46,278 nucleotides of DNA. Source: a bacterium. Its GTDB lineage: Bacteria > Bdellovibrionota_C > UBA2361 > SZUA-149. The position numbers and the translations under genes were made by a program. Below, one piece after another: positions 682-10,016 of the stretch; position 1 is the stretch's first letter; every line of letters starts with the position of its first letter. The DNA is taken from the NCBI GenBank assembly GCA_030433295.1, contig JAUIMJ010000004.1, positions 1-46,278 of the forward strand, written 5' to 3'. The notes under the pieces are model-generated. The model searched no databases. It had not been told where the DNA came from and was given only the letters and a program-made list of their open reading frames with translations.

Positions 682-951
682 TCAGGCAGCTTCAGCTTCA
701 GAATCCCAACCTGGAAAGACCAAAACTGCTGGATGGCACCGCAGCGCACGCGCAAGAGTCTTGGCTCGCTCCACTCCCAATCGAATTCGATTATTTTCAA
801 TGGCTGAAATCGTGGACTGAGGAATTCCTGTCAGCTCTGCCAATTCACTTTGGCTTAGCTCTTGCAACTCACGAACAATGCGCAAAGACTCACCAATGGA
901 AACGTCGATCAGTTTTCGAGCCGCTTCAAATTGTTTTTTACTTCCTGCCAT
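682..951 (-). CDS. higA: HigA-like antitoxin, XRE-type helix-turn-helix
   Basis: This is an 89-residue protein with a central XRE/Cro helix-turn-helix at about residues 23-75. The pattern is LSQSELAELTGIPQSTISAI followed by an N-rich turn and a basic helix. A helical N-terminal segment precedes it and a short A/P/E tail follows. In HigBA systems the antitoxin neutralises the toxin and represses the shared promoter through this domain. Its ATG (951-949) shares one base with the toxin's stop codon, so the pair is translationally coupled in the toxin-first order typical of higBA. The assignment to a HigA-type antitoxin is firm at domain level. The exact TA subfamily is inferred from order and partner. 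Confidence 0.85.
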   Translation of the reverse strand: MAGSKKQFEAARKLIDVSIGESLRIVRELQELSQSELAELTGIPQSTISAIENNRIRLGVERAKTLARALRCHPAVLVFPGWDSEAEAA

Positions 952-1232
952 TACTTCCTCCGATAATCGTGGGCAGTTACGTCGATCACTTTAACTATTA
1001 AATGGTCATCTTCTTTTAGATATATAACTCGGTATCTATCACCTAATCGAGATGAACGATGCCCCTTCCATTTCCCGCCTAAGGCTTCATCATGAAAGCC
1101 CTTGATGAGTCGAAGCCCGCCTGGACCTGAAAGATGTACAATATCTTTCCACTTTTCGTATCGTTTCTTTACCTCCAGAGGGAGCTTCACGAGGGTTTTG
1201 CGTAAACCCTTTTTTTCCAAGATCTGCCACAT
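951..1232 (-). CDS. higB: RelE/HigB-like mRNA interferase toxin
   Basis: This 93-residue basic protein has the RelE/ParE-superfamily fold signature. An N-terminal helix pair (residues ~8-32) is followed by a glycine-rich LIKGFHDEALGGKWKGH stretch and the strand RYRVIYLKEDDHLIVKVIDVT, and the end is HDYRRK. The R/Y/H-rich last third is where RelE-type toxins carry their ribosome-dependent RNase residues. It is the first gene of a two-gene unit with the XRE antitoxin (one-base overlap). A perfect 18-bp palindrome lies 14 bases upstream of the ATG and is a plausible operator. The length suits RelE/HigB. Target specificity cannot be read from the sequence. Confidence 0.82.
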   Translation of the reverse strand: MWQILEKKGLRKTLVKLPLEVKKRYEKWKDIVHLSGPGGLRLIKGFHDEALGGKWKGHRSSRLGDRYRVIYLKEDDHLIVKVIDVTAHDYRRK

Positions 1233-4283: not shown

Positions 4284-4502
4284 ATGAGTACAGACCTAGA
4301 AAAATTCAGTTCTCAGATGGACGCCAAAGTACTCGCGGAACTTCGAGCCTATGCGAAGACGAATAACAAGCGTATCGCGGATATTCTCAGTGAAGCAGTT
4401 AGCAGCCATCTTCAACAAGTGCGCCTGCGCCCCGCCTTTCGGAGCGCCGTGGATCTCGTAATCGAAGAGAACTCTGAATTACTCGAACGTCTTGCCAAGT
4501 AG
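4284..4502 (+). CDS. Ribbon-helix-helix antitoxin of a Doc system (72 aa)
   Basis: This is a small ribbon-helix-helix-like protein. An N-terminal strand (FSSQMDAKVLAEL) is followed by helices around residues 12-50 (AYAKTNNKRIADILSEAVSS) and a basic/acidic C-terminal tail (residues 50-72). That tail would be the part that wraps the toxin. It sits 5 bases ahead of the Doc toxin gene, the usual antitoxin-first order of phd-doc units, though the DNA-binding fold appears RHH rather than Phd. It should bind and inhibit Doc and repress the operon at the palindrome overlapping the -10. The only ribosome-like sequence (CCGGAG) abuts the ATG, which fits leaderless translation. Confidence 0.78.
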   Translation: MSTDLEKFSSQMDAKVLAELRAYAKTNNKRIADILSEAVSSHLQQVRLRPAFRSAVDLVIEENSELLERLAK

Positions 4503-4507
4503 CACCT

Positions 4508-4900
4508 GTGGACACCACGATTTTCCCAACACTTGAAGAGGCTCTTTACCTCCATACCAGGCTCATTGAAGACTTTGGGGGGCCTTCCGGTATTCGTGAC
4601 CTCGGTTTGCTGGAGAGTGCTCTCAGTCGGCCACGTTCAGGATATTACGATACACTCTCTGAGCAGGCGGCTGCGATGATGCAAAGCCTCGCTCGCAACC
4701 ATGCGTTCGTCGATGGCAACAAAAGAATGGCCTTTGCACTCACCGCTGTTTTTCTTCAGTTAAACGGATATACACTGAAGGTCGCCGCGTCCGCTGCCGA
4801 AGAATTCATAAAGCAGCAGCTCATCACCGCGCATATCGAGGTAGGGACAATTGCCGCATGGCTGGAAGCCCATATGACTCCAGTTTCGAAAGGCCGCTGA
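4508..4900 (+). CDS. doc: Doc-family (Fic fold) toxin
   Basis: This 130-residue protein carries the Doc signature HAFVDGNKRMA with H65, D69, N71, K72 and R73. The GNKR form is typical of Doc proteins, which phosphorylate EF-Tu, whereas Fic AMP-transferases have GNGR. Other family features are the N-terminal LEEALYLHTRLIEDFGG and LGLLESALSRPRSGYYD. Length and order match phd-doc operons. It starts with GTG 5 bases after the antitoxin stop, so the two are co-translated. All key residues of the active loop are intact. It ends 22 bases before the convergent selenoprotein candidate. Confidence 0.9.
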   Translation: MDTTIFPTLEEALYLHTRLIEDFGGPSGIRDLGLLESALSRPRSGYYDTLSEQAAAMMQSLARNHAFVDGNKRMAFALTAVFLQLNGYTLKVAASAAEEFIKQQLITAHIEVGTIAAWLEAHMTPVSKGR

Positions 4901-4922: not shown

Positions 4923-5243
4923 CTACGATTTTTTACCCAGAGAGACCGATGCACCCTCGACGATAAAGGGTCGTTTGATCAGCATGCCGTCGCTGCTAAG
5001 CAAATCAACTGCCTCAGTAGTACTCATCTTTTCGATTTTGTCCTTCAGCTGAAGCTCACGATACTTCTGCCCGGAGGTGTTAAACACCTTCTTGACACCA
5101 TGCTGCTTGATCGCAGAGCGGAGCTCAGTTTTTGTAGGAACGTCAGTCGTAAGGTCTATGGTCGTGTAAGAAGCACCCTGCTTCTCCAACGCTTTCTGCG
5201 TTGTCTTACAACTCGTTCAACGAGGGTGGAGATATAGTTTCAT
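4923..5243 (-). CDS. Probable selenoprotein: ArsC/Spx-family thioredoxin-fold protein with Sec (TGA) at the first position of CxxC
   Basis: Read with TGA 5219-5217 as selenocysteine, the 106-residue product starts MKLYLHPRUTSCKTTQKA. That is a beta strand, the redox motif U9-T-S-C12, then a helix. It ends in the ArsC/Spx tail with the conserved Arg-Pro (LIKRPFIVEG, near residue 93). This is the family's layout and near its usual length. Family members carry Cys where the TGA lies (CTSC in Spx). ATG 5243 has a good ribosome site (GAGG, 5 bases upstream). The only start after the TGA is a TTG at 5189 with no ribosome site, which would remove the strand and active site. A bSECIS-like hairpin begins 13 bases after the TGA. 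The substrate is unknown; a thiol/selenol reductase role is inferred. It is monocistronic and convergent to doc. Confidence 0.82.
5187..5203 (-). promoter_or_regulatory. bSECIS-like hairpin for UGA recoding
   Basis: On the minus strand CAACGC (5203-5198), loop AGAAA (5197-5193) and GCGTTG (5192-5187) form a perfect 6-bp stem with a 5-base loop. There are 19 bases between the TGA and the loop. Bacterial SECIS models ask for a short stem, a small apical loop with G in its first two positions, and roughly 16-37 bases between UGA and loop. Here the second loop base is G, so all criteria are met. It is coding sequence as well. Confidence 0.72.
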
Positions 5244-5338
5244 CTGAGCCTCTTGGAATTCTAGTAGGATACGCTTTTTAATCCGATGTGGATTCTACCA
5301 GTTTTTCTGATTTTTGCGAGGGGGAATGAAACTATATC
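5231..5338. repeat. 13-bp inverted repeat covering the start of the selenoprotein gene
   Basis: GATATAGTTTCAT (5231-5243, the complement of the first 13 bases of the selenoprotein frame) is repeated in inverse orientation as ATGAAACTATATC at 5326-5338. The second copy follows a purine-rich GAGGGGGA and opens a short frame starting MKLYRTSG. This may be a chance or a scar of inverted duplication. Apart from this, 5244-5580 shows no supportable gene. Confidence 0.45.
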
Positions 5339-9062: not shown

Positions 9063-10016
9063 CTAGTTGGCACTGAAGAGACAGGCGTGCACGAGGTCTG
9101 ATTCGAGGCAGACGACAGTGGCACTCGATTGTGCGCCACGCAACGTGCTTCGACTCTCTTCTCCGCAGCCGACCGATTGCTCGCTGTCGACACTGGTCCA
9201 CTTGCTGCGAGCCGCTTTGACGATGAGCTCGAGCGCTGTAGCCGGATTCGGTGCTTCATCTTTCTCCTGAACACTAAGACCTTCAAGAATTGCTCCCGAC
9301 AACAAGGTGTCCCAGAGCTTCTCGCAGGTCTTGGCCGAATTAAAGAGATGAACCGCTCGAATCCTTCCACCGACGGCAATTGCCATGCCGGAGGAACCAC
9401 GGCTGTAGCGCAGCTCCTGCTGGGAGGAACGTATGCGCTCGGCATTCGAGGTAAATGCTCCGCAAATGCTTTTCGTCGCATTTGAACCACCGACGTCTTT
9501 CAGCGTTTCATTAACCTGGGCCCAGACCGTATCCTGATCGGATTGATGCCCGGAACCACGTTTGACCGAGATGGAAACCGACTCGTCAAGTGTGTGTGCC
9601 ATCGACGGCGGCAGACTGCTGCCGGTCGAGGACATATCTTCACTTGTGCCCGGGGACCACCTTCCATGTTCAACACAGGTCGCAGGCGCGACAACGGTGG
9701 ATTCAGCGTCAACCAGCATCGTTGTATTAAGCACACGATTCTGGCCAGCGCCCTTAAATACAACTCCGGCAACGAAAAGCACCGGCACAGAGGAACGATT
9801 AGCTATCCGCAACTTTCCCCAGTGTGCACGACTTCCGTCAGAGTTGTCTTCGGTCACCGAAACCAGTCCCTGTTCCCTCGCCTCACTTTCAAGTAAATAA
9901 TCCAGCGGTGGGGCGTCGTCGAGTATGAGCGGATAGACCGCAACAGCCCCGGCGCATTTCGGGGCTACGATCGTAACCCGCTCCATCAATTTCTGAAATT
10001 TCGCTCGTTCTACCAT
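9063..10016 (-). CDS. ARPP-1-like domain protein (317 aa)
   Basis: The protein matches what I remember of the ARPP-1 family. It has a central segment with EQGLVSVTE, a stretch IANRSSVPVLFVAGVVFKGA, then GQNRVLNTTMLV and VVAPATCVEHGRW. A Ser/Arg-rich middle (SSQQELRYSRGSSGMAIAVG) and a C-terminal conserved half follow. The family is found in bacteria and is of unknown biochemical role; the name refers to association with rhodanese/phosphatase-type proteins. There is no signal peptide, so it is cytosolic. The start at 10016 (ATG) begins a family-like N terminus. A perfect hairpin (10075-10092) lies upstream. A small ORF follows closely and may be co-transcribed. Confidence 0.7.
   Translation of the reverse strand: MVERAKFQKLMERVTIVAPKCAGAVAVYPLILDDAPPLDYLLESEAREQGLVSVTEDNSDGSRAHWGKLRIANRSSVPVLFVAGVVFKGAGQNRVLNTTMLVDAESTVVAPATCVEHGRWSPGTSEDMSSTGSSLPPSMAHTLDESVSISVKRGSGHQSDQDTVWAQVNETLKDVGGSNATKSICGAFTSNAERIRSSQQELRYSRGSSGMAIAVGGRIRAVHLFNSAKTCEKLWDTLLSGAILEGLSVQEKDEAPNPATALELIVKAARSKWTSVDSEQSVGCGEESRSTLRGAQSSATVVCLESDLVHACLFSAN

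Follow-up and report, generated by a model that had tools for sequence, protein, structure and literature searches.

A predicted selenoprotein gene and its surroundings

The window (the whole 46,278-nucleotide stretch of DNA that was analysed) carries on its reverse strand a small ArsC-related gene whose reading frame is interrupted by a single TGA triplet close to its 5' end (Table 1). The frame translates as MKLYLHPR-U-TSCKTTQKALEKQ...KRPFIVEGASVSLGKKS*, where U marks the TGA codon. An initial annotation of this DNA had extended the frame upstream past TGA 5219-5217 to the ATG at 5243, and the sequence AAGAGG stands five bases before that ATG. The same annotation had held that no intact domain could be made without recoding. 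Indeed, when the TGA is read as a stop, the sole start listed is a TTG at 5189, and the resulting 88-amino-acid product has neither the first strand nor either redox residue. Elsewhere in the full-length frame the other family motifs are intact (FNTSG, Y61 and KRPF), and the C-terminal end of the protein is a little shorter than the open frames of many relatives.

Table 1. Features of the window discussed in the text (positions are those of the forward strand).
Feature	Position	Strand	Remarks
ArsC-related (TIGR01617) gene, predicted selenoprotein	4923..5243	-	106 codons plus TAG stop; U9 and C12; open except for TGA at codon 9
In-frame TGA, codon 9, first position of UxxC	5217..5219	-	Aligns with Cys of all homologues covering the site
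TGT codon for Cys12, predicted resolving residue of UxxC	5208..5210	-	C12 kept in nearly all homologues
SECIS-like hairpin	5187..5203	-	Perfect 6-bp stem CAACGC/GCGUUG, 5-nt loop AGAAA; loop starts 19 nt after UGA
Probable ribosome-binding site AAGAGG	5249..5254	-	Read from sequence; upstream of ATG 5243
72-aa ORF, then Fic/Doc-family gene	4284..4900	+	Fic/Doc product 130 aa (Pfam Fic, 2.7e-15)
HTH_3 antitoxin-like gene and its upstream neighbour	682..1232	-	One-base overlap
ARPP-1 domain protein gene	9066..10016	-	Pfam PF20208, 7e-60

The Fic/Doc-family gene and the short ORF before it form a Doc-type toxin-antitoxin arrangement that is convergent with the predicted selenoprotein gene and ends 22 bases away from it. 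A link between the two was considered and rejected, as only their adjacency speaks for it. Another toxin-antitoxin pair is probably formed by the HTH_3 antitoxin-like gene and the gene upstream of it, whose YafQ/RelE-type toxin match is weak and below the Pfam cut-off. The window also encodes an ARPP-1 domain protein. The order to which this lineage belongs includes a MAG labelled Bdellovibrionales.

The UGA codon occupies a conserved cysteine position

The TGA had been placed at the first cysteine of the CxxC motif, and orthologues with cysteine at position 9 had been suggested as a check. The alignments agree with this placement. The codon 9 column is Cys in 101/101 homologues that cover the site, and in 35/35 of a second set (the two sets, 136 records in total, have a few records in common), such that every homologue aligned in these sets carries the expected residue. 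The residues ahead of the TGA had likewise been read as family sequence. This reading is upheld by relatives from the same order, which have MKYYYHPRC where the window protein has MKLYLHPRU, and the frame upstream of the TGA therefore appears to be coding.

Besides codon 9, a single-base change could create a stop in the gene by 38 other routes, and the chance that a random single-base nonsense change would fall at a Cys codon 9, and not elsewhere, is approximately 1 in 40. Global recoding of UGA was also considered. This explanation is ruled out because TGA terminates 10 of the 30 long ORFs in the window, which shows that UGA does not generally encode an amino acid in this DNA.

The genome encodes the selenocysteine machinery

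The genome assembly is fragmented (425 contigs, 86% complete), but a search for selA, selB, selC and selD, as the initial annotation had recommended, located all four genes. The tRNA-Sec encoded by selC scores 78.5 bits (gathering score 47) and has the anticodon TCA (UCA in the RNA), and SelB is found above its cut-off with 315.8 bits. SelA is present in two pieces (L172 and L173), one at the end of contig C110 and the other at the start of C32. The ends of these contigs overlap over ~38 bases, with two mismatches that suggest a mixture of strains in the assembly, and the resulting order fits selC-selA-selB. SelD (L018, G000:C392:13055-14014) scores 333 bits and carries an in-frame TGA of its own within the sequence GGUGSK. 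Selenocysteine-containing SelD is among the known selenoproteins (PMC13188914).

A hairpin downstream of the UGA codon

A SECIS-like hairpin can be drawn just downstream of codon 9 (Table 1), and the SelD gene of this genome has a similar hairpin with a 6-bp stem and a 5-nt loop, located 16 nt after its UGA. However, a loose rule for bacterial SECIS elements is matched as well by 28% of random codons and 35% of Cys codons. A stricter rule, which was chosen after the hairpin had been seen, is matched by 4.9% of control codons and by 16 of 135 Cys orthologues. The use of the hairpin as strong proof of selenocysteine (Sec) was dropped because control codons match at rates from 4.9% to 35%, depending on the criteria. 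The structure is consistent with a SECIS, although it is only moderately discriminating and does not constitute independent proof. An Rfam search of the window yielded no matches.

Family assignment

With U read as Cys, the window protein matches Pfam ArsC at 6.2e-16 and 58.9 bits (cut-off 24), and gives a weaker match to Glutaredoxin. It is also a member of TIGR01617 (arsC_related), a broad NCBIfam subfamily covering Spx, MgsR and ArsC-related proteins, with 91.5 bits versus a cut-off of 75.05. In contrast, the scores against models of Spx proper (PRK01655, PRK13344 and PRK12559) are 44.2, 33.6 and 27.8 bits versus cut-offs of 123, 152 and 159, respectively. The classical arsenate reductase model TIGR00014 gives 44.5 bits versus a cut-off of 106.05, and for this reason the assignment does not imply arsenate reduction. 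Membership in NF041106 (ArsC_rel_Se_1) was rejected as well (22 bits versus a cut-off of 85).

The solved structures that match best by sequence are 2M46, 3GKX and 3FZ4, whose entries name them as putative arsenate reductases or ArsC-related proteins and which rank well ahead of Spx. We refer to this ArsC-related type as YusI-like, after the Bacillus relative. These matches place the window protein, with its thioredoxin fold, among the ArsC-related proteins of the YusI-like clade; it is neither Spx proper nor a classical arsenate reductase. The ArsC/Spx label given initially is thus correct as regards Pfam ArsC and TIGR01617, but it does not extend to the true Spx models or to TIGR00014, where the protein falls far below the cut-offs.

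Selenocysteine homologues in other genomes

Close Sec orthologues of the window protein were sought in several sets of genomes. None was found among 46 genomes of the phylum, nor in 64 genomes of a second phylum, where the sole homologue with a TGA is distant and Spx-like. The 387 genomes around G050 likewise yielded no close Sec orthologue and only one distant TGA homologue, and the 80 best loci on genome contigs contained none. The one match from viral contigs is partial and is without the site, and no homologue of the gene was detected in G001-G003, the other three genomes of this family. With no close Sec orthologue to compare, selection acting on the UGA in this clade is not demonstrable.

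Two distant homologues of ArsC/Spx type have a TGA at the same alignment column and a UxxC motif. One of these, L136 (NRUSTC), belongs to a genome whose phylum includes a Latescibacterota MAG, and the other, L171 (FTUTSC), is located at G344:C1:93669-93968 on the reverse strand. Both genomes contain tRNA-Sec. L136 passes the TIGR01617 model, and L171 lies just below it at 73.9 bits (cut-off 75.05). L171 also resembles the window gene in its hairpin: the stem (AACGC/GCGUU) and the 5-nt loop size are shared and the distance to the UGA is almost equal, even though different residues are encoded.

A maximum-likelihood tree built from 53 rows places the window protein inside a clade of Cys proteins with support of 99/96. 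L136 and L171 fall apart from it, such that at least two changes are needed, but their own placing is unsure because their branches are long. This topology suggests an independent Cys/Sec exchange in the window protein. A broader proposal is that no Sec protein of the YusI-like branch had been recognised before this one, and that it arose by an exchange of its own, separate from the Spx-like UxxC selenoproteins. We offer this proposal tentatively, and we regard it as somewhat less probable than its converse.

Interpretation and alternative explanations

The locus very probably encodes a small ArsC-related (YusI-like) oxidoreductase in which codon 9, a UGA, specifies selenocysteine under the guidance of the downstream hairpin. 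The hidden selenoprotein proposed in the initial annotation is therefore supported by the reading frame, by homology, by the position of the TGA and by the Sec machinery in the same genome, and we treat the product as a predicted selenoprotein. We infer the following scheme, from Sec insertion itself and the role of the hairpin as a SECIS to the redox cycle and the type of substrate. The tRNA-Sec and SelB would decode UGA at codon 9, with the hairpin just downstream guiding them. On the model of thioredoxin-fold enzymes that have UxxC or CxxC, the selenol of Sec9 would then be the nucleophile that attacks the substrate (probably a disulfide, some other oxidised thiol or a metalloid species), and Cys12 would resolve the intermediate as a selenenyl-sulfide.

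An assembly or sequencing error, or a strain variant, might instead conceal a true codon 9 of TGT or TGC, in which case the gene would encode an ordinary Cys-containing ArsC-like reductase. A Cys codon is only one base away from TGA, the gene is known from a single fragmented assembly, and the two mismatches in the selA contig-end overlap suggest a strain mixture. However, an error would have to strike this very codon among ~40 single-step ways of reaching a stop, and to do so in a genome equipped with the full Sec machinery. We consider this explanation improbable. A recent nonsense mutation at codon 9 would make the locus a young pseudogene, and the lack of the gene in other genomes of the family indicates that it may be dispensable. 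Given that the 106 codons hold no further lesion, that the FNTSG, Y61 and KRPF motifs and the ribosome site are retained, and that the stop sits at the single position at which Sec would be expected, this possibility is more improbable still. We give the least credence to translation from TTG 5189 into an 88-residue protein devoid of the redox residues. The shortened frame still matches Pfam ArsC, but its product would be without the first strand while the sequence encoded upstream of it matches relatives, and no clear ribosome site precedes the TTG.

If UGA is indeed decoded at codon 9, as we favour, the locus is a clean case, from a little-studied lineage, of a gene that standard annotation cuts short or overlooks by reading UGA as a stop. 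It would also add a Sec/Cys pair to a family with several solved Cys structures, in which selenol and thiol chemistry can be compared. The general picture of bacterial selenoproteins is unchanged.

Comparison with known ArsC-family proteins

The model cd03032, to which some selenium-containing relatives have been assigned, is one that we take to be of the Spx type. A study of the Sargasso Sea reported arsenate reductase selenoproteins with UxxS (PMC1088965). In 2008, the Global Ocean Sampling (GOS) study described 'Arsenate reductase 2', assigned to cd03032 and carrying UxxC, which comprises 42 sequences with Sec and 238 with Cys (PMC2398784), and reviews list both a UxxS arsenate reductase and the UxxC family NF041106 (PMC13188914; PMC9312934). 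The initial annotation mentioned ArsC-like selenoproteins proposed from metagenomes, and the 2008 report (PMC2398784) is of this kind. Because UxxC ArsC-family selenoproteins were reported at that time, this kind of protein is already known from marine metagenomes, and the window protein is a new example of it.

The window protein resembles the GOS 'arsenate reductase 2' in its ArsC-family fold, in its predicted Sec as the first residue of UxxC and in having Cys in most homologues. The GOS set, which was compared by its description only, is assigned to cd03032, whereas the window protein clusters with YusI-like proteins. NF041106 (ArsC_rel_Se_1) belongs to the same superfamily and has UxxC (PMC13188914), but the window protein is below its cut-off. 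The Spx regulator shares the fold and the position of CxxC, and both fall within TIGR01617, yet the window protein reaches at most 44 bits with Spx models whose cut-offs are 123-159. With the YusI-like reductases 2M46, 3GKX and 3FZ4 it has the FNT.G and LVKRP motifs in common, and their CxxC lies at the same place, with Cys where the window protein is predicted to have Sec.
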